NCBI RefSeq assembly: GCF_000325705.1 | Contig: NC_019904.1 | Coordinates: forward strand, 1,062,001-1,126,000 | Direction: 5' to 3' | DNA from: Echinicola vietnamensis DSM 17526 | GTDB taxonomy: Bacteria > Bacteroidota > Bacteroidia > Cytophagales > Cyclobacteriaceae | DNA: 64,000 nt | Shown: one piece after another, positions 811-20,010 of the stretch | Layout of the letters: each line of letters starts with the position of its first letter | How positions within the stretch are numbered: the stretch's first letter is position 1 | The notes under the pieces: model-generated | The model's input: the letters and a program-made list of their open reading frames with translations, nothing else | Told to the model about the DNA's origin: nothing | Databases searched by the model: none | Position numbers and translations under genes: made by a program

Positions 811-863
811 GTTGTCCCGCCGTCTCTGACGCGGGACCACAAAAACTGAGTCTCCCGACTCAA
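811..863. repeat. Two family-1 hairpins (TCAGAGA-type loop)
   Basis: A 7-bp stem (GTCCCGC 814-820, GCGGGAC 831-837) encloses a loop reading TCAGAGA on the minus strand. A second stem, GAGTC/GACTC, lies at 848-861 and encloses TCGGGAGA on the minus strand. The same pair of hairpins recurs at 3949-3997 and 16509-16556. The rest of 665-966 shows no gene. Confidence 0.75.
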
Positions 864-966
864 CCATATATTTTTGCTATTTGCATTCTTATTTTGCTCC
901 TTGCTCCAATCCACCGTCTCATTTCTCCCTACTTGATACTCACTACTCACATCTCACTACTCAATA

Positions 967-3762
967 CTAAAACTTAACTTCAATACTATATTTCCCCGAG
1001 CCCAGCTCAAAAGATGGATGCCCATCGGCTTGCACCTTGCTCACTCCCTTGGCTTTCTCAGTCCTGCTGCCATTGATCCTTACTTCTGCGGATTGCTCCA
1101 CGGGCAGCACCAACGTGGCGCTTGTATTGGCTGGTATGTCAAAGTGGAATTGGGCATTTCCCTCTTCCTTTTTCCAAGAGGAAGCAATGGTCCCGTAAAT
1201 GCTTTCATAGCTGGCCTTGACGAATGTCATATCGCCCACCCACTGCGGCTTTAATAGGAAGTGTTTAAAACCAGGCTGATCAGGATCCGGCTGGATGCCG
1301 GCCAAATCACGGTAAAACCACTCTTCGATTTGCCCCATCATAAAATGGTTCCAGCTGTTGCCCTTGCGGGGATCCCACTGTTCGGTCAATGTCGTCAGCC
1401 CAAACTTGATCTGGAAACCGTATCCGGGCGTGTCGTAATGGTTGTGCATCTTGAACATCACTTCATTCAGCCCGTTTCTGGCCAATGTCTGGTACAAATA
1501 CCGGTTGCCCACATCGCCGGTGGTCAATCGGTAACCATGCGCTTCAATGTCCTGCACCAAATGCGCCAACACCGCTTCCCGCTTGGTCGAATCGACCATG
1601 TCCAAAAACAGCGGCACGGCATTGGAAAATTGACTTCCGGTACCGTATTGGTTGGTCTCGGGATCAAAAAAGGTTTGGTTAAAGGCTTCTTTCACCTGCT
1701 TTTCCAGCCGGCTGTATTCCCGGTAATCCACCCCTTTTTGGAGCATCAAAGCAGCCTTTTTCAATAATTTCACCCCAAAATAATAGTGCGAAGTGGCCGA
1801 AAGGGCAATCGGACTGTTCTTGGAATAGCCCGCAGCATGCTCGCCATAGTCATACCAATCCCCCAAACCATGGGAAACGATATGGTTATCGGCTGTCGTC
1901 CCCAAATAGTCGATGTATTTTTTCATCATCGGATAATACTCCTGAATCAAGGAACTGTCGCCATAATAATCGTAATACATCCAAGGCAGTACCACAGAAG
2001 CCACGCCCCATTCAGGGGAATCCGTAAAGTCACCTCCAAAGACCACATATTCGGGGGCGATGTTTGGCACCAGGCCATTTTCCCGCTGGGCATCTGCCAT
2101 GTCTTGCATGACTTTAGGCACCAGCTGGGTAAGGTCATAATTATAAAACAACCCGGGACCATTTAGGTGTGTCTCTTCCAGCCAGCCCAACTTCTCCCGA
2201 TGTGGACAATCGGTAAAAACACTTTGCATATTGCTCTTGATGGCATTATTGATCAGCAAATGGGTCTGGTTGAAAATCTCATTGGAGCTTTCAAAGGTTC
2301 CCTCTTCCGTGGCGTCGTTATAGATAAAATTGGATTTTATCTCGGTAATGGTGGGCCTATCTGCTTGCTGCTCTTGGCCGGGCACATTCACGTCTGTCAC
2401 TTGGATGTATTGGTAACCATAAAAGCTAAACCTCGGCTGCCAGGATTCCTCTTCGTCGCCCTTGAGTGTGTATTCGTAATAATGCGGACCTCCGGTTCTA
2501 CCTTGGCCTACCAAACCACTCTCCTTGAGGTGCTCTCCCACGACCAGCTTTACTTTCTGACCTTTTTGACCTTTCACCTTGATGGATGGAAAACCGGCTA
2601 AGTTCTGCCCCATGTCCAGCACATAGGTGTTTTCTTCAGGCTCGGCAGTTGCTTTGATGTCATATTGCTTCTGGACAAGTACCGGTGATGCATGCTGCGG
2701 ACAAAGTTTTCCCTTAGGGGCTTCTTGGATGACCACAGGCTTCCAGTTGCGGTCATCAAATCCAGGCTGCGCCCAACCGTCTTGCTCCAAAGTGGCATCG
2801 TAATCCTCGCCACCAAAAACACAATTGAAGGTAATCGGACTCTCCGACCACTTCCATGAATCATCCGACGATATCAGCTGTTCCTCACCATCAGCATAGG
2901 TGATTTTCAGGTGAAAAAATAGGGTGGGAGGACCAAAACTGATCAGGAACTTTGCATAACGATCACCGGACACGTTGTACATCCCATTGCCCAGTAAGAC
3001 GCCAATGGCATTTTCCCCGCTTACAAGGCGCTCGGTGACATCGTAAGCATTGTAATAAACCGTTTTGTCATAATCTGACCACAAGGGTGCAAATTCACTG
3101 TTGCCCACTTTTTCCCCGTTGAGCTTGAGCTCATAATGGCCAAGTCCACTGATATAAACTGTCGCTTTTTCAATTTCACTTTCCACCTCAAACGGTTTCC
3201 GCAATTGGATACTCCGCTTTGCCAATGGCTTCACCTTGGACCATTTTTCCTTATTTTCCTCCCGGCGCATATCCGGCTCATGATAATTTCTGCCAGCCGG
3301 CAATCCACTTTCCGCACGGGTGATGGCGCCGATCCACTGAGCTCCTTTTTCCAGCTCATATGGTGCCATTTCGAAAAAAGCCATGTTGCTCCAATCAGAG
3401 GAAATACCTGCTTCATTCCACACTTTTACTTTCCAGAAATACCGCTCTCCATTGATCAAGGGGCCACCTTCATAGGGAATCAATTGGCTCTGACCGCTGG
3501 TGATTTTACCACTGTCCCAAACTACCGCCGCTTCATCCTCGCTGGCAGAATGGGACACCACCACCTGATAAGCGGTTTGCCGGGCACCGTTCGCATCACT
3601 GACCAATTCCCATCCAAATCGTGGCGCCGTCTTTTCAATGTTCATCGGGTTATCGGCCAATTCCGTGGTGATGTTGGTCACCTGAAGAAGGGTACCCCTA
3701 GGTCCGGAATCGCAGCCAGAAAACAGTACTACCGCTATCAATAAAAACAGCCATGCCTGCAT
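967..3762 (-). CDS. GH78-type alpha-L-rhamnosidase lipoprotein
   Basis: This 931-residue exported enzyme should remove terminal alpha-L-rhamnose from pectic side chains. The ATG at 3762 gives a clean lipoprotein signal (MQAWLFLLIAVVLFSGC); the longer frame would need a TTG at 3801. After the signal come a fibronectin-like region, an N-terminal sandwich domain and the alpha/alpha six-hairpin catalytic domain. Characteristic family motifs are DCPHREKLGW, with acidic residues just after it, and LTTLTEQWDP before the C-terminal beta domain. The length is normal for multi-domain Bacteroidota rhamnosidases. It lies between the propeller hydrolase upstream and the aldolase downstream, in the pectin locus. 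The lipid anchor suggests a surface or periplasmic location. Class is confident; linkage specificity cannot be read from the sequence. Confidence 0.92.
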   Translation of the reverse strand: MQAWLFLLIAVVLFSGCDSGPRGTLLQVTNITTELADNPMNIEKTAPRFGWELVSDANGARQTAYQVVVSHSASEDEAAVVWDSGKITSGQSQLIPYEGGPLINGERYFWKVKVWNEAGISSDWSNMAFFEMAPYELEKGAQWIGAITRAESGLPAGRNYHEPDMRREENKEKWSKVKPLAKRSIQLRKPFEVESEIEKATVYISGLGHYELKLNGEKVGNSEFAPLWSDYDKTVYYNAYDVTERLVSGENAIGVLLGNGMYNVSGDRYAKFLISFGPPTLFFHLKITYADGEEQLISSDDSWKWSESPITFNCVFGGEDYDATLEQDGWAQPGFDDRNWKPVVIQEAPKGKLCPQHASPVLVQKQYDIKATAEPEENTYVLDMGQNLAGFPSIKVKGQKGQKVKLVVGEHLKESGLVGQGRTGGPHYYEYTLKGDEEESWQPRFSFYGYQYIQVTDVNVPGQEQQADRPTITEIKSNFIYNDATEEGTFESSNEIFNQTHLLINNAIKSNMQSVFTDCPHREKLGWLEETHLNGPGLFYNYDLTQLVPKVMQDMADAQRENGLVPNIAPEYVVFGGDFTDSPEWGVASVVLPWMYYDYYGDSSLIQEYYPMMKKYIDYLGTTADNHIVSHGLGDWYDYGEHAAGYSKNSPIALSATSHYYFGVKLLKKAALMLQKGVDYREYSRLEKQVKEAFNQTFFDPETNQYGTGSQFSNAVPLFLDMVDSTKREAVLAHLVQDIEAHGYRLTTGDVGNRYLYQTLARNGLNEVMFKMHNHYDTPGYGFQIKFGLTTLTEQWDPRKGNSWNHFMMGQIEEWFYRDLAGIQPDPDQPGFKHFLLKPQWVGDMTFVKASYESIYGTIASSWKKEEGNAQFHFDIPANTSATLVLPVEQSAEVRINGSRTEKAKGVSKVQADGHPSFELGSGKYSIEVKF

Positions 3763-3868
3763 GAGGGCTAAAGGTTCCGTATAATTCTTTTCTACTTTCA
3801 ATTTTTTAGTATTTAACTCGAAATTAATACTGTTCAGTTAATGAAATTTAAATGGCTATCTGTGCAAG

Positions 3869-4079
3869 GTGCCGGAGCGGAGATCCGGCACGACGTTCTA
3901 TTTGCCATAGGCCTAATTGTACCGCTGTCTCTAACTCGGTACCCAGTTGTCCCGTCATCTCTGATGCGGGACGGTGAAAATTGAGTCTCCCGACTCAGCT
4001 CAGCTTTGCTTTACCACCGATTCCAATCTTTTGAGTCAGAGACTCAATGATAAGAAGTACCAAGTCACATACTTGGTAC
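3869..4079. repeat. Cluster of family-1 hairpins between pectin genes
   Basis: The 3802-4123 gap has no gene but contains at least six hairpins. They are GTGCCGGA/TCCGGCAC (3869-3891), GTACCG/CGGTAC (3919-3942), GTCCCGT/GCGGGAC (3949-3972), GAGTC/GACTC (3984-3997), TTGAG/CTCAA around TCAGAGA (4031-4047), and a 9-bp stem GTACCAAGT/ACTTGGTAC (4057-4079). Most enclose a CAGAGA-like loop on one strand or the other. Confidence 0.75.
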
Positions 4080-4123
4080 AACCACAAACTATTTTCTTAC
4101 TCAATCACGTTCTATCCAACCAC

Positions 4124-6085
4124 CTAATACGTCACTAACGACTCCAAGTAAAACACCGCCTCTGGATCTTCATCACCGGCATTGTCCAAGTCATAATCCT
4201 GGTCCGTTGGGGTTTCGGCATTCGGGAAGTACCGCTGTGTACCGGTTCGGAACACCACCCTTTCCATGGCATCCAAAGGCGCAAAGAAGAGCTTTGGCCC
4301 TTTCTCTTTGCCGTTTACCTTGATCTGGTAAAAGCGGGTTTCGGCATTTAATTCCAATTTCACATGATAGCTTTCTCCTGCTTCATATTCGGTAAGGGTA
4401 TTCATGCGGTATCCTGCCCGTGTCTTAAACAATCCATCTTCATCAAAGATCAACTGCACGCCTGGACGGCCTTTGCCATCTTGGATTTCGACCTGGAATT
4501 TTCCATGATCACTTTGCCCTGGGATCACGGTAAATTCCACATGCAGCTGCTTACTGCTGGGCACTATTCGCTGTGCCTTGCCATAATCAAAGGGATCCTT
4601 ATCCTTAAAGGTCAAGTATCTCTTGCCATCCTTAGCAGTGATTTCCGTCTTTGCCCACTGCGGGCTATACGTATTCCAAAGGGCCAGTTCCTGTCCTTCC
4701 GGTAACGCGTCAAACACTTCATTGGCATGACCCGCTGCTTCCGCCGTGATGGGCGTGGGCACAGAGGCCACCCATATGTCTTCTTTGTTGACACTGTATG
4801 TGAGCCACATTTTACCTGCTGTAGGGGTACCATTGCCCTCCAAAATCCCTCGCACGTATTGGGGGCCGTAGGATTTATAATTTCCGCCGTATCGCATGGC
4901 CGTGATCTCGCCGTGTACCAGCAGCAAATCCGTATAATTGATTCCGTCCTGACTGGTAGAAACAGCCAACGGCCACCGGTATTCGGAAGGGTTATAGACC
5001 GTCGCATAAGCGCCATCCGCTGTTCGCTGCCCCCAAATTTTGGCATTTCCATTGACCACGCCGGGCGCCCTCAGGGGATTGTATTCCCACGATTTTCCCT
5101 CATCATGGCTGATGCTCGTAAGGGCATGCTTCCACAATCCTACCACACGGCCATCGGGAAGGTGGTAATAACTAAACGCTTTATATTGTTTTTTCAAGGG
5201 AATCAACGGATCATCGCGATCCGCTTCCTCAACCCATTGTTGCATCATCAGCGGTTTGCCGAGCAGCTCATCACAGGCCTCCACAAAGGCGTTGTCTTTG
5301 CTGGACTTGTAAAACGGATAATCGGTATTTTGTTCATCCCAGCCGTGGTTATACCGGATAAAATGGATCGGCCCAAAACTGCCATCCGCCTTGATTTCCC
5401 GAACCACCCGGCCAATGCCGTTACCATCATTCGGCCCATCGTGGGCATCCAAAGCTATCCCATAATAGGCCAGTGCCAGGAATTTTCCATTATCAGCGAC
5501 ATAAAAGCCCATGCGCTGGTGCATCACGGCATCCAAGTCTTTGGCCACCCCTTCGTGCCCCGCTTTGCTCGTGCCATCAGGAATACGATAGGGAGGGAAA
5601 ATCACTTGCGGCTTGGTCCAGTCGTACCCATCCTCGGAAACTTGCAAAAGCGTCTGGCTCGGAGCAATGTGCTCCCCAACCGGGTCACTCAAGTATTCCA
5701 TGTAGAATTTTCCCTTCCAATAGGCCAACATCGGCGCGTGGTTATAGGTCCAGCCAAAGCCATCTCCCTTATCCGGTTGTTCCCTGTTGGCCCGCATGGT
5801 CTGCACAGCATGCACACCAATGGCCGGCTTTAACTGCCCGTGGTGATAATCTACCCTGGACAAGGTACTTCCACTGTAGTGTAGCGTATCCTGGGCCAAA
5901 AGCGAGGCTGGGGTAGCCACGATCATGCACAAGATCGAAAAAGCACCTAAGATTAGGGGATTACAAATTCCCTTTATGTCAAGCTCCGGATTGCAAATCC
6001 GGAACAGCAAGTCTTTTAAGCCTTGGCCCACTGTCCCGCTCTTTATTCTTTCCTCTATGTTCTTTCCTCTAAAATGCATTTTCAT
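4124..6085 (-). CDS. Asp-box beta-propeller glycosidase-like protein with C-terminal beta-sandwich
   Basis: A 653-residue exported protein from the pectin locus. Sialidase-type Asp boxes are visible (VSEDGYDW, SHDEGKSW, STSQDGINY), giving a predicted 5- or 6-bladed propeller over roughly residues 65-460. A LamG-like sandwich follows to the end. The family includes sialidases and related exo-hydrolases of acidic sugars, so one of the unusual acids of pectin is a possible substrate, but no catalytic set was assigned. The ATG at 6085 overlaps the GH43 stop as ATGA. The N-terminus is odd: residues about 27-44 are encoded by two intergenic-type hairpins, and the hydrophobic signal segment (LILGAFSILCMIVATPASL) only begins after them. 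An internal ATG at 5926 would leave a very short signal peptide. Confidence 0.75.
   Translation of the reverse strand: MKMHFRGKNIEERIKSGTVGQGLKDLLFRICNPELDIKGICNPLILGAFSILCMIVATPASLLAQDTLHYSGSTLSRVDYHHGQLKPAIGVHAVQTMRANREQPDKGDGFGWTYNHAPMLAYWKGKFYMEYLSDPVGEHIAPSQTLLQVSEDGYDWTKPQVIFPPYRIPDGTSKAGHEGVAKDLDAVMHQRMGFYVADNGKFLALAYYGIALDAHDGPNDGNGIGRVVREIKADGSFGPIHFIRYNHGWDEQNTDYPFYKSSKDNAFVEACDELLGKPLMMQQWVEEADRDDPLIPLKKQYKAFSYYHLPDGRVVGLWKHALTSISHDEGKSWEYNPLRAPGVVNGNAKIWGQRTADGAYATVYNPSEYRWPLAVSTSQDGINYTDLLLVHGEITAMRYGGNYKSYGPQYVRGILEGNGTPTAGKMWLTYSVNKEDIWVASVPTPITAEAAGHANEVFDALPEGQELALWNTYSPQWAKTEITAKDGKRYLTFKDKDPFDYGKAQRIVPSSKQLHVEFTVIPGQSDHGKFQVEIQDGKGRPGVQLIFDEDGLFKTRAGYRMNTLTEYEAGESYHVKLELNAETRFYQIKVNGKEKGPKLFFAPLDAMERVVFRTGTQRYFPNAETPTDQDYDLDNAGDEDPEAVFYLESLVTY
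5956..6008. repeat. Two family-2 hairpins inside the propeller gene's 5' end
   Basis: GGGG and TCCC flank ATTACAAAT-like sequence at 5956-5972, and CCGG and CCGG flank ATTGCAAAT at 5986-6002, followed by GAACAG. In the coding frame they read as two ICNP segments (RICNPEL and GICNPL). These are the same elements found between genes elsewhere in the window. Confidence 0.75.
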
Positions 6086-7026
6086 TTTGTTTTTGCGTTG
6101 GCTTTTAGGTTGTCCAACACTTCTTTGGAAACCGTACTGATCGTGCCGTGTTTATGTCCCTCCGGCAGGCTGATTTGATCATCGATATTGGTAAAGGTCT
6201 TGAAATCTGCCGTACTGACTGCTTGATAGGTCTTGGCACCGTAGCTGTCAAAATAGATCAGCCACTTATCCCCATCTTTCAGCACCGTAGGCCCCTCGGT
6301 GAGGAAATCCGAAAATGGCTCCGAATAATCCTTCCAAGGGCCTAGCGGAGATTTGCCAAAAGCCACTTGGATATTCCGGTTGGGGCGGGTATTATCTTTC
6401 AATACCAGCGCATAATCATCTTTTTTGCGCTTCACGATCACCGCATCAATAACGCTAAAACCCGGCTCCAAAAAGAGCTTTGTCGGCGTAAAATCCTTGA
6501 AATCCTTGGTCGTGGTGTAGTACATCCGGTGGTTGTTTCGCTCTTCTTCCTCACCCTTCTCGTACCGGAAAGGGATAGTGGATGCCCAAATGATGATGTA
6601 GCGGTCTTCTTCATCATCATAAAAGATCTCTGGTGCCCAAACGTTCACTACATCGGGTTCATGGGCCATAGCAGGAATAAACTGCTGCTCCGACCAATCC
6701 ACAAAATCCTGTGTGCTGGCATAGCCAAAACCCTTGCCCCCCCTCCAATCAGTGGTCCATACCATGTGGTAGGTTCCGTCGGGCCCTTTTACCACAGAAG
6801 GATCACGCATGATGTGGCTTTTGCCGACTTTTGGCGGCAGGAAAGGGCCTCCAAGACTTTCCCAATGGTAGCCATCTTCGCTGTACGCCAAGTAAAGCCC
6901 TTCATCTGCTGGTTCTCGAAAGGAAGTAAAAATGTAATATTCCTTTTCTGATTGGCAGCTCAGCATCAGGCTGCCCAAAACGAATAAGGCTATCTTTATA
7001 AAGCTCGTTCTCTCAGTAATTTTCAT
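6082..7026 (-). CDS. GH43-like glycosidase lipoprotein
   Basis: A 314-residue lipoprotein when started at the ATG at 7026, which gives MKITERTSFIKIALFVLGSL followed by MLSC as lipobox. An ATG at 7053 would add nine residues. The body is a five-bladed propeller typical of clan GH-F. The first acidic motif is MRDPSVV, the second SVIDAVIV and the likely general-acid motif LTEGPTVL, in the order expected for the base Asp, modulating Asp and acid Glu. Relatives act on arabinose, galactose or xylose side chains; the exact activity is not clear. The stop overlaps the next gene, so the two are probably translated together. A hairpin repeat separates it from GH28 upstream. Confidence 0.82.
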   Translation of the reverse strand: MKITERTSFIKIALFVLGSLMLSCQSEKEYYIFTSFREPADEGLYLAYSEDGYHWESLGGPFLPPKVGKSHIMRDPSVVKGPDGTYHMVWTTDWRGGKGFGYASTQDFVDWSEQQFIPAMAHEPDVVNVWAPEIFYDDEEDRYIIIWASTIPFRYEKGEEEERNNHRMYYTTTKDFKDFTPTKLFLEPGFSVIDAVIVKRKKDDYALVLKDNTRPNRNIQVAFGKSPLGPWKDYSEPFSDFLTEGPTVLKDGDKWLIYFDSYGAKTYQAVSTADFKTFTNIDDQISLPEGHKHGTISTVSKEVLDNLKANAKTK

Positions 7027-7061
7027 TGATAATCTTTTGTTCAAGAAATCCATATCTCACA

Positions 7062-7200
7062 TCATTGCGAGGAAGTATGACGAAGCAATCTCTTCTTCGG
7101 AACACAAGATTGCTTCTTCCCTCCGGTCATCACAATGACGAAATAAAGGACCGTCATTGCGAGCGGAACAATAGTGAGCAAAGCAATCTCGCCTCCTTTA
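7062..7200. repeat. Fold-back intergenic repeat (ATTGCGAG / GAAGCAATC type)
   Basis: This region between GH28 and GH43 contains GAAGCAATC (7082-7090) and its complement GATTGCTTC (7108-7116), with CATTGCGAG and CACAATGACG outside them. A second partial copy starts near 7153 (GTCATTGCGAGCGG). The same core is found, flanked by terminal inverted repeats, at 33124-33262. No coding potential was seen. Confidence 0.7.
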
Positions 7201-7214
7201 CACTACATCACTAT

Positions 7215-8789
7215 TTAATTTATCCCTTTCACCTCTTCTCCTTTGATCACCGGTTCGGTGACATTGTTCCATTGGTTGTTTTGAATAAAGATGTCCAAGC
7301 TCTTTTCTCCATTTATCTTCAGGAAATTTGGGGTGCTGACCATAGGGAAATTGTTGGTCACCAAGGCATTGCTGACATTCATGAGCTCCACCACGGGGCG
7401 ATCTGCATGGGGCCGGCGACTTTTGATATTGTCCAAGATGATCCCTTCGGTATCTTCCACACTTATGGAAGGGCCCATTTCGGTCGTGATCTGCACATCA
7501 TGCAACTCCACATTGGTGGCCGTATGGATGGAAATGCCCTCTTTAGCATCCATGTTGATATTGGAAAAGCTGATCTGGTCGATCGGCATCTCGGGAATTC
7601 CTAAGATCTTGCCGGCCACATTGATTTGGCTTCCGGTCACATTGGAAATATGGATGTTGCGGAATGCAGGTGTTTCTTCGGTTACAGGGCCTTCCTTGGT
7701 GTTCTTGTCATAAAAAAGGTTCATCACAATGGCTTCTAGCTGGATATCCTTCATGACGACATTGTCCACCCGGATTTCTTCGACCACACCGCCACGTCCT
7801 CTGGCTGCTTTTAGCCGAATACCTCTATCGGTGCCATCGAATACGCAATTGGAGATGGTCACTTTTCGGATGCTGCCGGAGACCTCACTTCCGATGACCA
7901 CACCGCCATGTCCGCTGAGCATGGTGCAATTGGTAATCGTGACATTCTCGGTAGGAGTGTCCCACTTCCGGCCGTCCATATCCCTACCGGACTTGATCGT
8001 GATACAGTCGTCGCCCACGCTGATATGGCTGTCAGAGATGTGCACATTACGACAGGAAGTCGGGTTGATGCCATCGGTATTGGGAGAAGGAGGGTTTTCG
8101 ATCGTAACACCCGTGATGGTGACATTGTCACAAAAAGCAGGATTTACCGTCCAAAAGGGGGAATTTACAATGGTCACCCCCTCGATACGAACATTTTTGC
8201 AGCGAAAAGGCTGAATCAACGGCGGCCTGAAAAACTTCAGTCGCATGGTTTTCTGATAATTTGGAGAAGTCTCCAGCCCTTCATTTGCAGCGGTCCACAT
8301 CTTCTGGTATTTGCTCTCTTCGAGGGTCTCGGGAGCCGCTTCATGAATCCGGTACATTTCCATCCACCAGTCTTTGCCTTGACCGTCGATCTTTCCCCTA
8401 CCGGTAATGGTGATATTCTCTGCCTCATAGGCGTAGATCAATGGGGAGAAGTTATTCATCACAGTCCCTTCCCAACGCATCTGCACAAAAGGCAGGTAAT
8501 GGTCAAAATTCGTGGAAAATCGCAACACCGCTCCCGCATCCAAATGAAGGGTGGTATTGCTTTTCATGTGAATGGCACCCGTGAGGTAATCCCCCGCCGG
8601 AAAAAAAAGCGTTCCCCCACCTGCCTCAGCGGCTTTGTCAATGGCACTTTGGATGGCTTCCGTACAAAGCTGGCCTTCGTTGTTGCCACCAACATCCAAA
8701 ATATTCGTCCAGCCCGGATTCGCCGCAGTCAACGATTGACTGAAGGCAAAAAGGCATACTACAAACAGTAATTTTGTTAGTCTTTTCAT
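7215..8789 (-). CDS. GH28 polygalacturonase-family enzyme
   Basis: A 524-residue exported right-handed beta-helix hydrolase that should cut galacturonan or rhamnogalacturonan. A signal peptide (MKRLTKLLFVVCLFAFSQSL, then TAA) is followed by a pectate-lyase-superfamily opening (AIQSAIDKAAEAGGGTLFFP). All GH28 active-site motifs are visible: NTD at 237-239, GDD at 259-261, GHG at 293-295 and the substrate-binding RIRLK region near 322-327. The length fits bacterial exo-acting or rhamnogalacturonan-type members, which are longer than fungal endo enzymes. The gene lies centrally in the pectin locus between GH140-like and GH43 genes. Family assignment is very safe; endo or exo mode is not. Confidence 0.95.
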   Translation of the reverse strand: MKRLTKLLFVVCLFAFSQSLTAANPGWTNILDVGGNNEGQLCTEAIQSAIDKAAEAGGGTLFFPAGDYLTGAIHMKSNTTLHLDAGAVLRFSTNFDHYLPFVQMRWEGTVMNNFSPLIYAYEAENITITGRGKIDGQGKDWWMEMYRIHEAAPETLEESKYQKMWTAANEGLETSPNYQKTMRLKFFRPPLIQPFRCKNVRIEGVTIVNSPFWTVNPAFCDNVTITGVTIENPPSPNTDGINPTSCRNVHISDSHISVGDDCITIKSGRDMDGRKWDTPTENVTITNCTMLSGHGGVVIGSEVSGSIRKVTISNCVFDGTDRGIRLKAARGRGGVVEEIRVDNVVMKDIQLEAIVMNLFYDKNTKEGPVTEETPAFRNIHISNVTGSQINVAGKILGIPEMPIDQISFSNINMDAKEGISIHTATNVELHDVQITTEMGPSISVEDTEGIILDNIKSRRPHADRPVVELMNVSNALVTNNFPMVSTPNFLKINGEKSLDIFIQNNQWNNVTEPVIKGEEVKGIN

Positions 8790-8810
8790 AGGTTATTTTG
8801 ATAGGTAGTT

Positions 8811-8935
8811 GGGGATTTCAAATCCCCATTATTGTTAGTTCGGGATTACAAATCCCAAACATCGGGATTACAAATCCAGAACAGGTGAGCCTCATGAATT
8901 GGCTCGGATATCCAAATTCCGAACAGCTTAAGTGC
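8811..8935. repeat. Run of four family-2 hairpins
   Basis: The gap between the GH140-like and GH28 genes contains ATTTCAAAT between GGGG and CCCC (8811-8827), ATTACAAAT between GGG and CCC (8842-8856), the same core between GG and CC (8865-8877), and a degenerate copy near 8909-8926. Two are followed by GAACAG. No gene is seen here. Confidence 0.75.
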
Positions 8936-8969
8936 ATACTCCAGTCTCAAGACTCACTACTCACTACTC

Positions 8970-10397: not shown

Positions 10398-10513
10398 TGT
10401 ATAATTGTTGAAAGGTTTTTAATGTTTCAATGTGTTAAGGTTATTGCAGGAAGCCTCCTCTAATCCGTTTCCACTTTAGAAAGCTGGGCAGCTGAATCAA
10501 CGCTGCAATTCTC

Positions 10514-13500: not shown

Positions 13501-13630
13501 GGTAAACCAATGCTCCGTCCTGCTGGCTAATGGGTTTGGGGGCTTGCCTTGCGAGGACGAGTTGGCCCCACGAAAGGAATAGTCCAAGTACCACAAAATT
13601 CTGGAAGAACCTTCTCCCAGAATTTTGCAT
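10514..13630 (-). CDS. Large exported beta-helix protein fused to a putative TIM-barrel hydrolase domain
   Basis: A 1038-residue protein starting at the ATG at 13630, where a signal peptide (MQNSGRRFFQNFVVLGLFLS) begins. A longer frame back to 13834 would overlap the next gene and is rejected. Residues about 50-480 form a pectate-lyase-superfamily beta-helix (LEPGIYEIGGQLVF, GVVLRGSGQGKTTLLGTG). Residues about 560-960 look like a separate domain (VQWWRGSLRPRD, ALDHNYGLWYERRRDDHERV, FTSAEYTGPLHFTEFW, GDYAPQGGKHMAPRQ), resembling an uncharacterised family I recall as DUF6298. The end is a beta domain. Acidic strand ends (SAEYTGP, FMDEYFYN) suggest a glycosidase. It is a good candidate for an undescribed pectin enzyme; no specific activity can be given. 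Confidence 0.7.
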   Translation of the reverse strand: MQNSGRRFFQNFVVLGLFLSWGQLVLARQAPKPISQQDGALVYQTSENGDRIPDFSFCGYEASEKAIPSVPAKVVMSPREGDVTAQLQSAIDHVGTLAMDENGFRGAVLLEPGIYEIGGQLVFSKSGVVLRGSGQGKTTLLGTGKTRETLVRVLGQDDREYGDTLKITDAYVPVNARELTVASALSAGSQVMVVRPSTQAWIDELSMNEFGGETGWIGWKPGGHDQYWDRTISKTDEGKVAFDVPLTNAIDQKYGGGFLVSYEWPGRIQHVGIEHLSMQSTYDQSNPKDEDHRWSAVSMESVQDAWVRQVDFRHFAGSAVAVYKTGRRITVEDCRSLAPVSEVGGERRNTFFTEGQQTLFQRCYSEYGYHDFSTGLATAGPNAFVQCKAYLPHSFSGAQQGWASGVLFDMVRIDGHALVFANRMQEGRGAGWTAANSVFWQCDAAEIRNYSPPTAQNWAFGAWAQFEGNGQWIETNNHVKPRSLYYAQLEDRLGDLPFEPFLMPVGSEPSSSPTVEQATEMTVLAREPLLTMEKWIQQAAIRNPIDPAAGSAKSLEALGIEPKDQTSTAAPKVAVIKGKLTWDGQLLTGSTQTVQWWRGSLRPRDIGRSRPHVTRFVPGRYGTGYTDVIPEVVATMKAEGSVALDHNYGLWYERRRDDHERVRRLDPDVWPPFYEQPFARSGQGEAWDRLSKYDLTKYSHFYWSRLDQFADLAEQEGIILMHQNYFQHNILEAGAHWADSPWRSANNINDTGFPEPPPYAGDKRIFMDEYFYNVDHPQRRELHRKFIRQCLGNFADNSNVMQFTSAEYTGPLHFTEFWVDVIGEWEAETGHDALVALSATKDVQDAILADPVRKELVEVIDIRYWHPSESGDYAPQGGKHMAPRQHARKMKQGKETPAAIYEGIKRYRDQFPDKAVIYSTPAGSRMGWAVLFAGGSLPNLPAVDAPAWKESLATMHPMESQNGHWIMQNDQGELLVYIAEKEAMGSAGYHELAPKDGEAVFIHAGSGAIIKEVKTLSETTSGLDIGADAPLILWIRKK

Positions 13631-13682
13631 ACTTATCAACCTTCTATTTATGCTATTAAACTGTTTCACGTTGGTCGTTACA

Positions 13683-14342
13683 TTACGGATTGTTGGCTGC
13701 CTTTTTTCGCTCAAACATTTCTTTTTCGGCTTGCTTAAGGTCATATCCCAAGTCGGAAAGGTAGTTGTTGATTTTACCTTTGTATTTGCCAAACCAAGCG
13801 TGCTTGGCATGGGAAGAACCTGCGTCCATCGCACGTTCTCTGGCTTCCACCAGCCAATCCCAAATTTTATCCTGCTGTGCCTGGTTAAGGTCTGGGATCA
13901 TCTCCTGATAAACCTTAAACGTGTTTGGTGCCACGTTATAGGTCATGCCATCTTTCACCGCTTCCACCTGCTTATCGGTCAGCTCAGCAGAAAGTTGGGC
14001 CAGGTATTTTTTATGCAACTTGGCCATGGCTTTATTTGCCCTCTTTTCAGCTTTTTTGATTTTCTTTTCTTCCTTTTTGCCATCATACATCTCCTTGGCC
14101 GCGTCGATCTGTGAATCGCGCTCGTCATGAATCAGGCTGAGGTTCCGATATTGCTTTGCAATGATGTCACTGACTTTGTCCGCTTTCTGTGGATCAGCAA
14201 TATCCATGTTTTCCAAAATCTTGTCGGCCCGCTCGTTGGTTACCTTCACATATTCAGGATCAAAGCCCTGTGCATGGGCTACTGCTGCCAAACCCGTAAT
14301 CAAAATGACAGCCAAAAGGAATGATTTTATATTCTTGTTCAT
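13683..14342 (-). CDS. DUF3826-like exported protein
   Basis: A 219-residue protein with a clear signal peptide (MNKNIKSFLLAVILITGLAA, cleaved after HAQ). The mature part is almost all helical and rich in Lys and Glu. It includes NERADKILENMDIADPQKAD near the start and a long charged helix (DGKKEEKKIKKAEKRANKAM). This pattern matches DUF3826, a small Bacteroidota family found beside pectin and other polysaccharide genes and described only as a putative sugar-binding protein. It lies 52 bp upstream of the beta-helix fusion gene and 135 bp downstream of the pectate lyase. No catalytic motif is seen. Confidence 0.72.
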   Translation of the reverse strand: MNKNIKSFLLAVILITGLAAVAHAQGFDPEYVKVTNERADKILENMDIADPQKADKVSDIIAKQYRNLSLIHDERDSQIDAAKEMYDGKKEEKKIKKAEKRANKAMAKLHKKYLAQLSAELTDKQVEAVKDGMTYNVAPNTFKVYQEMIPDLNQAQQDKIWDWLVEARERAMDAGSSHAKHAWFGKYKGKINNYLSDLGYDLKQAEKEMFERKKAANNP

Positions 14343-14366
14343 GGTAATTATATTTTTTGTTTGAAG

Positions 14367-14390
14367 GGGATTTTAAATCCCGAACAGTGT
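14367..14390. repeat. Family-2 hairpin with GAACAG tail
   Basis: GGG and CCC flank ATTTTAAAT at 14367-14381, followed directly by GAACAG. It lies upstream of the DUF3826 gene, in the gap after the pectate lyase gene. Confidence 0.7.
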
Positions 14391-14477
14391 AAGATAAACC
14401 CCCTCCTAACCTCCCCTAAAGGGGAGGAATTCTAGGAATTCTATCTTGGTTCTTTATTCTTTACTCTTTCTTCTAAA

Positions 14478-16196
14478 CTACTTTTGCAAAAGCCCACCGT
14501 TCATGGCAACATCCAGTAGGGTATCGTGGCTATTTTCCCACTGGGTCCAATCCACCTTTTTGGTAGGATCGATTCCGTTGATGTACTTTTCAAGGTTGGT
14601 GTAGCCGTCACCGTTCAGGTCGCCATTGGCATCGGAAGGATCATTGGGATCCAGCCCATACTTCACTTCCCAAGCATCCGGGATGCCATCACCATCCGTT
14701 TCGGCATACGGCTGCCCCTTGTACTCAGGATAGCCCCCCACTTGATCGGGATGAACGATAATGCCCTTTTTATAAGAATCTATTGGCAACCTCCTATTGA
14801 TAAACTCCGCGCCGATTTCCATTTCTTTCCCTTCCGGAGCATTGATTTCTCCAGTTTTCACCATTTGGATGACCCTTTTGTCCACTGCATCCCTTTTGGG
14901 CAAGGTGGCACCGGCATGCTCCATCACAAAGTCATACGCGGCTTTGGCAGATACGATCTTGATGGGAGCCATTTCAAACGGCTTGGATTGGCGCATGTAG
15001 GCAAAATGCTGCTGCGCCTCTTCGAGGCTTAGGTCAGACGGCTGTACTCCTCCGGCCCAGTTGTCTGCTGAAACCTTGGGGTTTCCTTCGACGAAATTGC
15101 CCTCGACATAAGCCCTTCCAAAGGTTTTCGGATCCAAGTATCCGGATTCTGGTTTGATGATCCGGTAGCTGATGGGCTTACCTTCAGGCGTCATCGGCCC
15201 TGGCTTATAGTAATTGTTAATGATATTGAAGAGCGAACGGTAATCGCCCCCATCCACGGACCGGTTCCACCAATTGAACAGCACATTGTTCACAAAGGTA
15301 AAATCCCCGTACATGCCCACCGATGGGTTTCGGGAGATGTTGTTGGCCCACAGGTTACGGATGAAAGTGCTGTTCAGGCCGCCAATGGTACTGCCAAAAG
15401 CGTGATTATACGTATCAAGCCCTTCAGAGGAAATGGTATTCTGAATGGTAATATTGGCAGCCGGCAGCTTTTCGCGATCGGAATTTTCATTGGCTGTGAA
15501 CATGTTACGGTACAGGGAGATGTTTTCGTCCAGTCCCCAGCTCACCGAGCAATGGTCGATGATCACATTTCCCATGGGATCACCACTCAGGGCATCGTCC
15601 CTCCGTGTCACGTCCGTAGCTCCTCTTCGGAACCTCATGTGCCGGATGATCACATCATGGGTGTCCACGGCAAAGGTCTCTCCCGCTACACAAATCCCAT
15701 CTCCCGGGGCGGTCTGTCCCGCGATGGTCACATACGGTGCCCGCAGACTGATGGGCTTTTCCAGTTGGATAATGCCGGCCACATTGAAGACGATGGTCCT
15801 GGCGCCCCCAGCTTCACAAGCCTCTCGGAGCGTGCCGGGACCACTGTCGGCCAAGCTCGTCACGACAAAGACCTTTCCTCCACGGCCACCGGGCGTAAAA
15901 GCCCCTCCGCCTTCTGCTCCCGGGAAAGCAGGAATATCAGCTTTTACAAAATCATTGGGATAGGAAGCCCAGCGCATATAGGGCCTTCCTTCTGTAGCTT
16001 CCTGCTGAATGGTGGGATAAATTTCGTTCCAAACCTCGTCCAGCCTTGCTTCTTCCAAGGCCATGATCGAATCAGTTTTGGCCTGTAAGGCCGGGGGAAT
16101 CTCGGGATATTGGGCAAAAGCCTCCACGCTTATCAGGGCTGCTACCGTCAAAATGAAGAAGCCTTTCGGCCAAAAAGATTGCTTTATCGTTATCAT
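14478..16196 (-). CDS. PL1-type pectate lyase with C-terminal calcium-binding repeats
   Basis: A 572-residue secreted lyase that should cleave polygalacturonate by beta-elimination. A signal peptide (MITIKQSFWPKGFFILTVAA, ending near AFAQ) precedes the usual start of this subfamily, AFPGAEGGGAFTPGGRGGK at about 90. Pectate lyase motifs follow: RDDALSGDPMGNVIIDHCSV, with calcium-binding Asp and the IDHCS strand, and the beta-helix runs to about 430. The C-terminus contains a thrombospondin-3/dockerin-like stretch (DGDGIPDAWEVKYGLDPNDP, then SDANGDLNGDGYTNLE). It is the first gene of the minus-strand pectin cluster and is preceded by 500 bp without a gene, so the main promoter probably lies there. 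Confidence 0.93.
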   Translation of the reverse strand: MITIKQSFWPKGFFILTVAALISVEAFAQYPEIPPALQAKTDSIMALEEARLDEVWNEIYPTIQQEATEGRPYMRWASYPNDFVKADIPAFPGAEGGGAFTPGGRGGKVFVVTSLADSGPGTLREACEAGGARTIVFNVAGIIQLEKPISLRAPYVTIAGQTAPGDGICVAGETFAVDTHDVIIRHMRFRRGATDVTRRDDALSGDPMGNVIIDHCSVSWGLDENISLYRNMFTANENSDREKLPAANITIQNTISSEGLDTYNHAFGSTIGGLNSTFIRNLWANNISRNPSVGMYGDFTFVNNVLFNWWNRSVDGGDYRSLFNIINNYYKPGPMTPEGKPISYRIIKPESGYLDPKTFGRAYVEGNFVEGNPKVSADNWAGGVQPSDLSLEEAQQHFAYMRQSKPFEMAPIKIVSAKAAYDFVMEHAGATLPKRDAVDKRVIQMVKTGEINAPEGKEMEIGAEFINRRLPIDSYKKGIIVHPDQVGGYPEYKGQPYAETDGDGIPDAWEVKYGLDPNDPSDANGDLNGDGYTNLEKYINGIDPTKKVDWTQWENSHDTLLDVAMNGGLLQK

Positions 16197-16438
16197 TTTC
16201 AGTTAATTTTAGGTTTTTGGTGTTTGCCAAAAGCACCCCACCAGTGTTAATCTAACCAATAGGAAAAAAACCTGATCAACGCCTCCATTTTCTCCATATT
16301 GCTGATGTAAAGTTACTTAATAAGGTAGGCAAACCTTCCTGAACTATCCTGCTGAACCCCCTAACAAAAGGCTGAACAAGGATAATTTAAGCCTGAAAAG
16401 GGATATGGAGAACCTGAGCCTCATACGAAGCAAGTATT

Positions 16439-16556
16439 GAGTCGGAGACTCACCCTTTGCCTGTGCCGGGGCAGAGACCCGGCACAACTACGGCAACCGA
16501 ACCCAGCTATCCCACTGTCTCTGACATGGGATCACGAAAACTGAGTCTCCCGACTC
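16439..16556. repeat. Four family-1 hairpins upstream of the pectin locus
   Basis: GAG/CTC around TCGGAGA (16439-16451), GTGCCGGG/CCCGGCAC around GCAGAGA (16463-16485), ATCCCA/TGGGAT (16509-16532) and GAGTC/GACTC (16543-16556). Compared with the 3869-3972 copies, the second and third stems carry paired changes on both arms. The rest of 16197-16720 has no gene; it should contain the promoters of the pectate lyase and ytxJ genes. Confidence 0.75.
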
Positions 16557-16720
16557 AGGTATTCGGTTTCTTCCACTAATTTCTTCACAGTGGGACAGGG
16601 CCCCAACGCAACCCCGGACTTCATCATTCCTAATTTCCCTATTGTCACTTGCTACTTTTTTCGCTTATCTTCGAACCGAAATCCACTAAAGGATTGTTAC
16701 AGACCAAACGAAAAGAAACT

Positions 16721-17056
16721 ATGGCTTGGAAAGCAATTGATCACCTAGAGCAAATCCAAAAAATCAAAGAAGAAAGCAAAACCCAACCGGTATTGATCTT
16801 CAAGCACTCTACCAGCTGCAGCATCAGTGGCATGGCTTGGAACCGGCTGCAACGCAATTGGCAGGAAGGGGATTTCGCAAAAGTCAGCCCTTACGTGCTG
16901 GACCTTCTTACCTACCGTGAGATTTCAAACGCCATCGCCCAAGAGTTTGCGGTGGACCATGAATCGCCCCAAGTAATCCTTCTCAAAGACGGCATGGCCT
17001 ATTATGACACCAGTCACATGGGCATCAATTACCACGACATTATCGAAAAGGTATAG
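16721..17056 (+). CDS. ytxJ: Bacillithiol-system redox protein YtxJ family
   Basis: A 111-residue cytoplasmic thioredoxin-fold protein starting at the ATG at 16721 (MAWKAIDHLEQI). It has the single active-site Cys of the YtxJ/DUF2847 family in KHSTSCSIS (Cys33) and the conserved ESPQVILLKDG strand containing the cis-Pro. Members are thought to act as monothiol bacilliredoxins that remove bacillithiol from proteins. This fits Bacteroidota, many of which make bacillithiol. The frame is open further upstream, but that part is unlike the family. It stands alone between the pectin locus and the sulfatase. Confidence 0.9.
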   Translation: MAWKAIDHLEQIQKIKEESKTQPVLIFKHSTSCSISGMAWNRLQRNWQEGDFAKVSPYVLDLLTYREISNAIAQEFAVDHESPQVILLKDGMAYYDTSHMGINYHDIIEKV

Positions 17057-17283
17057 TCAAGAGCATAAGATAGTGACCAAGGCCTTAAAATAGCCAAGGA
17101 AAGAAGCTCCTCCTTGCCCTTGGACACACTCTTTACGATGTAGTAGGAGGAAGGGCCTTCAGATGGTGCTTCCTTTGCCTACCCCCCAACATTTTTCTCC
17201 TCACCGTAAATTAAAGGGAAGAGCGTTTTTAATAATTGGGATGAGCTTATATATTTGGCTCACTTACCTGAACGAACCTATCC

Positions 17284-18750
17284 ATGAGATTTCCGGCCCA
17301 TCTGCTTTTATTTGCCCTTATCTTTTATTTTTCATGCAAAGAAGAAACCACCACCCCACCCAATATTCTTTTTATTGCCGTGGATGATCTTCGGCCAGAA
17401 TTGGCTTGCTATGGAAAATCATATGTCCATTCCCCCAATTTTGATCAGTTAGCGGCTGAAAGTAGCCTTTTTGAAAACCACTTTGTGACGGTACCTACCT
17501 GTGGAGCCTCCCGTTACAACCTGATCACCGGAAGACTCCCCAAAAGCCCGGGAGACCTGAGCAACCAGGCTTCTGTGACCAATATTGCAAATAAGCCAGA
17601 AGACGAAAGGCCTGTTACCTTTATGCAAGCATTAAGGCAAAATGGCTATTACACCGTAGGGATCGGAAAAATCTCCCATCATCCCGATGGATATGTATAT
17701 GGCTACCTTGACCCTAAAAGCGATAAAATCGAACTTCCGGGCAGCTGGGACGAAATGCACTTCAATAACGGTAAATGGGGCACGGGACATCATGCCTTTT
17801 TTGGGTATGCAGATGGCTCAAACCGCAACGAAATGGACAAAGCGGTCAAGCCTTATGAAGCCGCAGAGGTCGACGACAAAGGGTATCCGGATGGGCTTAC
17901 CGCTGACCTGGCCATCCAAAAGCTAAAATCCCTAAAGCAGCAACAAAAGCCTTTTTTCTTGGGAGTGGGCTTTTTTAAACCCCACTTGCCCTTCACCGCC
18001 CCAAAAAAATACTGGGACCTCTATGATGAAGTAGACATTCCTTTGGCCCCATTTGCGGCTATTCCAGAAAACAGTGCCAAGGCCAGCCTTCATAACAGCG
18101 GGGAGCTAAACCAATACCGACTCGGGGAAGAAAAGCCTAACTTGGAACAGGCCGCCTCTGATGCCTATGCCCGAAAATTGCGTCATGGGTATTTGGCGGC
18201 GGTAAGTTATATCGATGCCCAGGTGGGCAAACTATTGGACGAACTAGAAGCGCAAGGCCTGGCCGATAATACCATAGTAGTGGTTTGGGGCGACCATGGC
18301 TGGCATTTGGGCGACCAAAAAACTTGGGGCAAGCATACGGTCTTTGACAATGCCCTGAAAAGTGTCCTGATGATCAAGCGGCCTGGAAAAGAAGGGCAGC
18401 GGATAAAGCAGGTCGTCAGCACTACAGACATCTATCCGACTGTCATGGAGCTTACCAATGTCCCTTCCCAATCGACCTTGGATGGAGAGAGTATGGTGTC
18501 CCTTATGGACAATCCTTCTGCTAAAGAATGGAGGAACACTGCTTACAGCTATTTCAGTAGAGGTGTTTCCCTACGAACCCCACAATATAGATTGACCAAA
18601 TATTTCCGAGATCAGCCTCCAGCCGTGGAGCTATACGATCACCTAAACGACCCACATGAAAGTAAAAACGTGGCAAAGGACCTGCCAAAAGTAGTACAGC
18701 AACTTATGCCGATCTGGGAAAAGGGGAATACGGGGATCTTTGAGGAATAG
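17284..18750 (+). CDS. S1-family sulfatase, iduronate-2-sulfatase-like lipoprotein
   Basis: A 488-residue lipoprotein (MRFPAHLLLFALIFYFSC) that should hydrolyse a sulfate ester on a carbohydrate. The metal-binding DD at 34-35 (IAVDDLRPEL) and the formylglycine motif CGASR at 73-77 are clear, followed by YNLITGR. The motif has Ala where CXPSR sulfatases carry Pro. VVWGDHGWHLGDQKTWGKH near 330 supplies the C-terminal metal and sulfate ligands. Overall organisation matches the iduronate-2-sulfatase/choline-sulfatase type. Activation would need a formylglycine-generating enzyme encoded outside this window. The gene is next to the pectin locus but on the other strand, so membership in it is not shown. 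Confidence 0.92.
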   Translation: MRFPAHLLLFALIFYFSCKEETTTPPNILFIAVDDLRPELACYGKSYVHSPNFDQLAAESSLFENHFVTVPTCGASRYNLITGRLPKSPGDLSNQASVTNIANKPEDERPVTFMQALRQNGYYTVGIGKISHHPDGYVYGYLDPKSDKIELPGSWDEMHFNNGKWGTGHHAFFGYADGSNRNEMDKAVKPYEAAEVDDKGYPDGLTADLAIQKLKSLKQQQKPFFLGVGFFKPHLPFTAPKKYWDLYDEVDIPLAPFAAIPENSAKASLHNSGELNQYRLGEEKPNLEQAASDAYARKLRHGYLAAVSYIDAQVGKLLDELEAQGLADNTIVVVWGDHGWHLGDQKTWGKHTVFDNALKSVLMIKRPGKEGQRIKQVVSTTDIYPTVMELTNVPSQSTLDGESMVSLMDNPSAKEWRNTAYSYFSRGVSLRTPQYRLTKYFRDQPPAVELYDHLNDPHESKNVAKDLPKVVQQLMPIWEKGNTGIFEE

Positions 18751-18753
18751 ATG

Positions 18754-20010
18754 GAAGCCCCCTTCGACTACGCTCAGGGATCTTTATTCTTCGGCTAAGC
18801 TCTGGAAAGGAATCAGAAGCAGCCTATTTGAGTCAGCGACCGAAAGCTTGACCGTGCTGCGGCAGAGACCCAGCAAAACCTTAGGTATTAACCTTGTCTT
18901 ACGGAATTCGTATTTTATCGCATTTGTCACCTTACTTTATGGTTTATGAGTTTCCTACTCAGTTCAATCCTGGTATAAGCTGTTTCGGATTTGTAATCCC
19001 GTGGAGACTTGTTTTGATTTCGTACTTTGTACGTCGTACTTGATACTTAAGTCTAACTACTAGATACTTTGCTCTTGGCTCTTTTCTCTTTACTCTTTCC
19101 AAATATAATGTACAAGTCTGGAGACTTGTAGGAGTCTGGGTATCAGTCTGAAGACTAAGACCAGGTGGGAGAAGCCCCCTTCGACTACGCTCAGGGATCT
19201 TTATTCTTCGGCTAAGCTCTGGACAGGAATCGGAAACAGCCTATTTGAGTCAGCGACTCAAAACTATACCGTGCTGCGGCAGAGCCCAAGCACAACCTTA
19301 GGTATTAACCTTGTCTTACGGAATTCGTATTTTATCGCATTTGTCACCTTACTTTATGGTTTATGAGTTTCCTACTCAATTCAATCCTGGTATAAGCTGT
19401 TTCGGGTTTGTAATCCCGTGGAGACTTGTTTTGATTTCGTACTTTGTACGTCGTACTTGATACTTAAGTCTAACTACTAGATACTTTGCTCTTTTTTCTT
19501 TACTCTTTCCAAATATAATGTACAAGTCTGGAGACTTGTAGGAGTCTGGGTATCAGTCTGAAGACTAAGACCAGGTGGGAGAAGCCCCCTTCGACTACGC
19601 TCAGGGATCTTTATTCTTCGGCTAAGCTCTGGACAGGAATCGGAAACAGCCTATTTGAGTCAGCGACTCAAAACTATACCGTGCTGCGGCAGAGCCCAAG
19701 CACAACCTTAGGTATTAACCTTGTCTTACGGAATTCGTATTTTATCGCATTTGTCACCTTACTTTATGGTTTATGAGTTTCCTACTCAATTCAATCCTGG
19801 TATAAGCTGTTTCGGGTTTGTAATCCCGTGGAGACTTGTTTTGATTTCGTACTTTGTACGCCGTACTTGATACTTAAGTCTAACTACTAGATACTTTGCT
19901 CTTGGCTCTTTTTTCTTTACTCTTTCCAAATATAATGCACTAGTCTGGAGACTTGTAGGAGTCTGGGTCTCAGTCTGAAGACTAAGACCAGGTGGAGACT
20001 AAGACCAGGT
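18754..20010. repeat. Three tandem copies of a 410-417 bp noncoding repeat
   Basis: Near-identical units start at 18754, 19171 and 19581 (GAAGCCCCCTTCGACTACGC), giving periods of 417 and 410 bp. The 7-bp difference comes mainly from a CT-rich tract. Each unit contains the hairpin words found elsewhere: TTTGAG/CTCAAA around TCAGCGA, GTGCT/AGCAC, TACAAG/CTTGTA around TCTGGAGA, and a family-2 core. The third copy ends in a short duplication (AGACTAAGACCAGGTGG). Short open frames inside it are not conserved in reading or start context. Confidence 0.93.

Follow-up and report, generated by a model that had tools for sequence, protein, structure and literature searches.

Two-hairpin palindromes in Echinicola vietnamensis as probable REPs of a RAYT transposase that this genome has apparently lost

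The transposases of repetitive extragenic palindromic sequences (REPs) in Bacteroidetes include the TnpAREP subclass 2.6, for which 'atypical secondary structures' without the GTAG foot were described (PMC6006769; this and the other papers are cited for those parts of them that were available). In Marinomonas three loop positions are crucial and complementing the whole stem had only a moderate effect, in Stenotrophomonas the loop is critical, and in E. coli the loop letters are not selected (PMC8266576). Table 1 of PMC3733652 gives no transposase association for repeats tagged with CGTC, and the available part of PMC12306157 mentions Bacteroidota once and neither Echinicola nor a REP-associated tyrosine transposase (RAYT). 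Our own literature searches, with most subscription journals outside their coverage, found no description of REPs in Echinicola or of the anatomy reported here. The present study concerns a family of hairpins in a 64,000-nucleotide stretch of Echinicola vietnamensis DSM 17526 (NC_019904.1, positions 1,062,001–1,126,000 of a 5.6-Mb single-contig genome), and "the window" means this whole stretch. These hairpins are very probably REPs, often joined in inverted pairs (REPINs), of a subclass 2.6-type RAYT, a single-strand transposase of the Y1 HUH kind, whose gene would have been deleted in the window's genome. We regard the family as a variant of REP/REPIN, in which recognition would be by apex and foot.

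The initial annotation of the window had reported at least a dozen hairpins with a conserved loop and freely changing, covarying stems. The six examples it quoted lie where it had placed them, and loop-matching hairpins with at least five perfect outer pairs occur beyond chance (six in the window; 200 dinucleotide shuffles gave 0.15 on average and never more than 1); a dozen is reached if both hairpin families and both hairpins of each unit are counted. The hairpins are not separate elements, however. Genomic copies found by BLAST show that the hairpin TTGAG-TCAGAGA-CTCAA and the hairpin GTGCCGGG-GCAGAGA-CCCGGCAC, which reads GTCCCGCGTCAGAGACGGCGGGAC on the opposite strand, are parts A and B of one unit. 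This unit of about 54 nt consists of hairpin A (GAGTC-AGA-GACTC), a linker of 7–9 nt, hairpin B (10 bp, mostly with one mismatch or bulge, and an AGA loop) and then AAC, an unpaired foot that on the opposite strand stands as 5'-GTT directly before B. GTCCCGC/GCGGGAC, quoted as an example of its own, is the B hairpin of a second subtype, seen from the opposite strand. The apex is indeed constant, but the loop proper has only three or four bases (AGA, GGA, GGGA, TGGA), and the TC and GA beside it form the top of the stem, paired in A and mismatched (G.A) in many B hairpins. Free change was likewise found in the lower stem of B, while the apex, the GAG/CTC of hairpin A and the AAC foot hardly vary within the genus.

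The window units sit between large open frames. Inverted pairs are frequent and many units are single; inverted doublets occur at 16435–16560 in the window and on both sides of the RAYT gene in the related genome G200 (G, C and L numbers are our own handles). Folding as single-stranded DNA yielded both hairpins, with z between –4.4 and –5.3 for the five strands folded. A covariance model, R1, was built from 17 units of the window's own genome (alignment A2), and it found eight units with E < 1e-8 in the window, several of which belonged to the model-building set. The features are given below with strand and R1 score.

811–865, minus: REP unit, subtype beta; A 846–863 (GGGA loop), B 814–837, AAC foot; 63.2 bits.
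3845–3894, plus: decayed unit, its B hairpin GTGCCGGA/TCCGGCAC at 3869–3891 intact; 24.0 bits.
3919–3943, minus: B half only, weak match (GTACCG/CGGTAC); 16.2 bits, E 0.02.
3946–4000, minus: REP unit, subtype beta; A 3981–3998, B 3949–3972; 57.5 bits.
4029–4082, plus: REP unit; A 4031–4047 (AGA loop), B 4057–4079 with a wholly different stem, GTACCAAGT/ACTTGGTAC, AAC foot 4080–4082; 62.9 bits.
16435–16488, plus: REP unit, subtype alpha; A 16437–16453, B 16463–16485, AAC foot; left half of REPIN 16435–16560; 70.5 bits.
16506–16560, minus: REP unit, subtype beta; B 16509–16532, A 16541–16558; right half of the same REPIN; 54.7 bits.
18754–19995, no strand: tandem array, period 410, 3.0 copies, 96% matches, with units of both families.
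18826–18879, plus: REP unit in the first copy of the 410-bp tandem repeat, partly decayed; 41.0 bits.
19110–19163, plus: two-hairpin unit of a sister family, TACAAGTC-TGGA-GACTTGTA, linker, GGTATCAGTC-TGA-AGACTAAGACC; by eye it resembles the units flanking the RAYT gene L024.
19243–19296, plus: REP unit, second tandem copy; 61.1 bits.
19653–19706, plus: REP unit, third tandem copy; 61.1 bits.

The hairpin of the sister-family unit, TACAAG-TCTGGAGA-CTTGTA at 19111–19130, recurs at 19521–19540 and in an altered copy near 19937; compared by eye, it too is similar to the L024 units. Across the window's own genome R1 gave 31 matches at E ≤ 0.01, one of them the opposite strand of another. Eleven of the 31 lie within 20 kb (1,061,231–1,081,706, that is window positions 811–19706 and 0.8 kb before the window).

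Compensatory changes in the stems, which the initial annotation had claimed, exceeded those of shuffled alignments both in the building set and in units outside it. A2 leaves out the two L024 units and the one at window 19110, and includes one row, L009:1653–1708, that is cut short. Three further alignments were made: A3 holds 89 R1 matches (85 distinct) from 59 loci of G197, G198 and G200, none used in model building and all chosen from the better-scoring places rather than from all units; A5 holds 30 distinct units of the window's own genome at 19 loci, largely those of A2; and A6 holds 27 distinct units of other genera. In A2, 93.6% of cells were paired (83.8 ± 1.2 when shuffled), both sides had changed in 8 of 16 pairs (0 of 500 shuffles), and the covariation score was 0.276, against 0.107 when shuffled and at most 0.102 when slid. 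A3 gave 91.5% paired cells (82.7 ± 0.5) and 11 pairs altered on both sides, a number that shuffling reached once in 500 trials (mean 6.0); cells of this kind numbered 124 against 33.2, and the score was 0.260 (0.106 shuffled, at most 0.065 slid). As single pairs in A3 take four or five standard pair types, more than one event is needed. Paired cells made up 90.0% in A5 and 95.1% in A6, with scores of 0.231 (0.102 shuffled) and 0.589 (0.195); the number of pair types in A6 was not unusual (121 of 500 shuffles as high). Covariation thus supports selection on the folded strand, RNA or DNA, as initially suggested. The AAC foot was present in 80 of the 89 A3 matches, in 23 of the 27 distinct A6 units and in 13 of 17 in A2, a count that is slightly low because row L009:1653–1708 is without the unit's end.

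R1 units were found in at least 19 of 196 genomes of the family at E ≤ 1e-4, with 29 candidates per genome scored, and the ten congeners hold 1–132 matches (E ≤ 0.01, at most 150 candidates scored per genome). The transposase domain Y1_Tnp (PF01797) has six matching places in the window's own genome; it was searched for in ten of the 19 genomes with R1 units, nine of which had matches and one, G169, none. A Y1_Tnp gene lies inside a unit cluster at G111:C31, G078:C1, G045:C23, G128:C2 and G126:C9 (broken in G126), and RAYT genes stand within unit clusters in G197, G198 and G200 as well. Around L154, the RAYT of G111, units occur before the gene at 944–, 1008+, 1106– and 1170+ and after it at 1923–, 1986+ and 2119– (signs denote strands), with differing B stems side by side. 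At another locus, L159 (G146:C17:8500–15500), two Y1_Tnp frames of a different type, 153 aa each and identical to one another, have at least seven R1 units around them within 7 kb; this may reflect chance, a target preference or use in trans.

The NCBIfam model NF047646 for REP-associated tyrosine transposases (cutoff 80) scored 92 bits for L154, 106 for L024 and 87 for L155, Pfam assigns Y1_Tnp to these proteins, and among PDB sequences L154 matched TnpArep alone at E ≤ 1 (4er8, E 0.02). H-x-H and Y-x-x-N-P are invariant in five aligned proteins, and the motif Y[IVL]xxNP occurs in 76 of the 79 proteins of our RAYT set. Judged by such motifs, the RAYT appears largely to fit TnpAREP subclass 2.6: L154 has NHLH, YIHNNP and 185 aa, and L024 has NHVH, FWQ, YIHQNP and 184 aa. 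A RAYT-like gene, which the initial annotation had proposed to look for, is present in two forms, the cognate in relatives and L024 in the window's own genome, from which the cognate is absent. Relatives of L024 occur in 138 of the 196 family genomes (E ≤ 1e-15). L024, at first our candidate for the cognate RAYT, gave way to the L154 type when that turned up within clusters of units.

The comparison within the genus covered eleven genomes (G000, which is the window's own, G047, G111, G146, G169, G190, G196, G197, G198, G199 and G200). An intact RAYT, 74–100% identical to L154, was found in G111, G197, G198 and G200, and in all four R1 matches flank it on both sides. The RAYT of G199 is 60% identical to L154 and has no R1 match in its surroundings, a sign that specificity may shift as RAYTs diverge. 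In G000, G047, G146, G169, G190 and G196 full-length RAYT matches reach 46% identity at best or are absent altogether; G146 retains two RAYT fragments and G196 a broken copy with pieces 59% and 47% identical. Genomes with the intact L154-type RAYT hold 30, 78, 79 and 132 units and the others 31, 24, 36, 1, 32, 8 and 6 (one-sided Mann-Whitney p 0.021, G199 counted as without).

In G111, G198 and G200 the RAYT gene stands between two RND genes, in the order RND1-RAYT-RND2. The window's own genome has RND1-unit-RND2, with the genes about 430 nt apart, a single unit, and no RAYT trace in the gap by tblastn at E ≤ 10; the own copies therefore look orphaned. The 5' arm of this unit, GTCCCACGTC, is that of the beta units of G200. 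In G146 the gap measures about 240 nt and contains two units; in G190 it extends over about 1.5 kb, where R1 matches twice and no RAYT was hit. The RAYT of G197 is located elsewhere, and its REPtron has other apices. Beyond the genus the RND1-RND2 synteny fails: the gap is a few bases in G078 and G128, whose RAYT genes lie elsewhere, in G078 directly after another RND-like frame. Deletion of the RAYT, for example by recombination between its flanking REPINs, would be the simplest reading. The comparison of orthologous sites, proposed in the initial annotation for related strains, was made with congeners, presence and absence being compared at the site of REPIN 16435–16560 and at the RND gap. 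G197 and G200 lack this REPIN in the corresponding orthologous gap, and G198 has a REPIN of its own there.

From these observations a mechanism can be proposed. The hairpins would fold when the strand is single, and the RAYT would bind the apex and the GTT foot, perhaps also the irregularity in B, and cut and rejoin beside apex and foot, thereby moving or copying the REPIN. The lower stem would act as duplex, so its letters may vary if both arms vary together. The cognate RAYT would have been deleted from its ancestral place between the two RND genes, so that about 30 units became orphans. One of the explanations first offered, a mobile element that recognises the loop, thus proved right in kind, as RAYT genes lie inside the unit clusters of relatives. 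The loop itself would be what the RAYT recognises; a precedent is given by the TnpAREP systems of Marinomonas and Stenotrophomonas, for which the loop is essential (PMC8266576).

Several points weigh against this account. The window's genome is without a cognate RAYT, and therefore nothing shows current movement there; at the REPIN site compared no insertion junction is readable because the flanks have diverged. The AAC foot is kept less constantly in the window's own genome, in 18 of the 30 distinct A5 units, than in A3. In L154 the residues FWE stand in place of the WQ reported for subclass 2.6, and units also lie near other Y1_Tnp genes, at G146:C17 and at G085:C1:1068336 (about 500 nt away in G085). 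The link between RAYT and copy number compares four with seven genomes and takes no account of phylogeny: three of the four RAYT genomes exceed the rest and G111 does not, while G047, G146 and G190, without the RAYT, hold 24–36 units, as many as G111. The covariation counts are not corrected for kinship; the copies are related, and covarying cells are therefore not equal to events. The A3, A5 and A6 alignments also lean towards the model. Finally, among 94 RAYT loci whose flanks were searched, 21 had no hairpin of the type sought.

Of the other explanations, one is that the copies are not orphaned and that L024 serves the GTC-AGA-GAC units along with its own GTC-TGAA-GAC units. L024 is intact and has two-hairpin units with GTC-TGAA-GAC and related apices on both sides, sharing the GTC/GAC inner arm, and both unit types stand together in the 410-bp tandem array. 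However, its own units score 15.5 and 11.5 bits under R1 while those beside L154-type RAYTs reach 73.9, L024 is 42% identical to L154, and the 60% identical RAYT of G199 has no R1 match around it; we consider this explanation unlikely. Covariation would fit RNA equally with single-stranded DNA, and RNA roles have been given to REPs elsewhere (PMC6006769). Yet that the hairpins work mainly as RNA (3' stabilisers, terminators or regulatory elements), with the proximity to RAYT genes secondary, seems improbable, as both orientations stand adjacent, Rfam at its gathering thresholds found only two tRNAs in the window, and the association with RAYT is specific; a secondary RNA role is compatible with our account.

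Correction of quasi-palindromes by template switching, which the initial annotation had also considered, would alter both arms at one stroke and produce matched arms without selection. It is disfavoured, and as the main cause highly improbable, because frequent irregularities persist: the G.A pair is unpaired in 50 of the 85 distinct A3 units and the one-base bulge of the beta B hairpin is kept, while neighbouring pairs covary. The constancy of apex and foot and the RAYT genes inside the clusters speak against it as well. We give equally little credence to an origin of the units from an insertion sequence of the IS200/IS605 type, whether as its end hairpins or as its miniature derivatives. The GTT/AAC ends also made integron attC sites a candidate. 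The chemistry of IS200/IS605 elements is related, and in G146, which has no intact L154-type RAYT, units lie 350–390 nt outside the pair of identical 153-aa frames at C17. But the proteins in unit clusters pass the RAYT model and fall below the IS200 model NF033573 (19.4, 31.3 and 25.1 bits for three proteins tested, cutoff 55), and one intact L154-type gene was seen in each genus genome that has it. The reading as REPs of a lost RAYT is thus the one we prefer.

The flanks of RAYT genes were also compared across lineages. In up to 700 nt on each side of 94 RAYT loci, which were those fetched with best matches first and not a random sample, 257 perfect hairpins were found against 34.2 in shuffled sequence. 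Within the 28 loci that have three or more distinct arms, arm identity was 0.72 beside the loop and dropped to 0.35 by the seventh pair; between loci it started at 0.45, stood at 0.48 for the second pair and ended at 0.28. For the 30 labelled rows in a tree of 79 RAYT proteins, the inner-arm label needs 13 changes against 18.0 when shuffled (0 of 200 as low). Of the apex labels, ATT forms almost a single clade, GTC is weakly clustered (38 of 500 shuffles gave as low a value) and GTT shows no clustering on this tree (500 of 500). Sister REPtrons of the L154 clade have ATCCGAAGGT-GCA-ACCTTCGGAT-AAC, with another apex and the AAC foot kept. Hairpins A and B have a common apical dinucleotide in 16 of the 27 distinct units of other genera (6.9 when shuffled, 0 of 20000, kinship uncorrected), and no excess was seen inside the genus (14 of 85 in A3, 10 of 30 in A5). 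Tentatively, and as a possibility rather than a probability, RAYTs might read a structural address and not the stem sequence, namely the GTT foot and an apex carried by both hairpins of the bipartite REP; the address would be rewritten (TC-AGA-GA, GC-ACA-GC, TT-CGGA-AA, GGT-GCA-ACC) while the foot stays.

At locus L296 (G197:C1:4243300–4244600) the hairpins beside a RAYT 74% identical to L154 retain the AAC foot and show other apices (GAGTT-AATA-AACTC, GC-ATA-GC and GC-ACA-GC), and units of the AGA type lie elsewhere in G197. This is possibly a recent change of specificity. A second hairpin family, with the apex ATT-ACA/GCA/TCA-AAT and variable outer stems, was seen in the window at 690–708, 718–740, 5985–6003 and 8810–8828, and the 410-bp tandem unit also carries a stretch, TTTGTAATCCCG, that resembles it. 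In congeners and in other genera the ATT apex is found on the flanks of RAYTs from another clade (L055, L056, L060, L064, L162, L164), of which no member was seen in the window's own genome; these hairpins may be a second orphaned REP family. Three other Y1_Tnp genes of the own genome, L020, L022 and L023 (at 1,236,182, 1,371,447 and 3,088,939), have flanking repeats of their own, for example CAACCCC-NNN-GGGGTTG and CCCAAGGA-TTC-TCCTTGGG (L022) and CCCAATGA-AGC-TCATTGGG (L023), which are further REP-like families in one genome.

What is new is the anatomy, which joins two hairpins to a GTT/AAC foot and a constant apex to free stems, with the apex changing from one RAYT lineage to another. It gives structure to REPs hitherto called 'atypical', in a phylum for which we found little REP work, and offers natural loop-RAYT pairs with which the recognition of hairpins by single-strand transposases can be tested. 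Congeners that have the RAYT and congeners that lack it are material for studying the fate of REPINs after loss of the transposase, be it persistence, decay or a lasting role.

In the broad sense the family has three marks of REPs and REPINs, with many short palindromic copies, inverted doublets and a cognate RAYT flanked by the same repeats, the last in relatives only (G111, G197, G198, G200, G078, G045, G128 and G126) and not in the window's own genome. The GTAG- and CGTC-tagged repeats are similar in that they are short palindromes between genes, have stem variants that are complementary and form head-to-head dimers (PMC3733652), but neither tag stands at the ends of the Echinicola units. 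In place of the canonical GT[AG]G foot the units read AAC (5'-GTT on the other strand), and in place of a terminal CGTC, an 8–9 bp stem and a CCA-like tail their ends are the GAGTC hairpin A and AAC; CGTC occurs only inside the beta B stem. The group 3 REPtrons of Stenotrophomonas and Marinomonas need the loop for activity, as is proposed here, but have a GTAG foot and a single hairpin (PMC8266576). In Pseudomonas fluorescens SBW25 the REPINs are likewise inverted doublets between genes, clustered at the RAYT, sometimes in tandem arrays and in part with compensatory changes (PMC3116915). There, however, the REP sequence is highly conserved and compensation occurs in the spacer, whereas in Echinicola the changes lie in the stems of the REP hairpins. 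Among the close systems is subclass 2.6 as the available text of PMC6006769 presents it, also from Bacteroidetes, with a protein of about 180 aa (~179), NH[LIV]H and YIH[QN]NP, and with flanking structures that lack GT[AG]G and are copied elsewhere. From that description, which sets out no anatomy and the single motifs of which may stand in its Table S1, the Echinicola units differ in their bipartite anatomy, GTT/AAC foot, constant apex and free lower stem.

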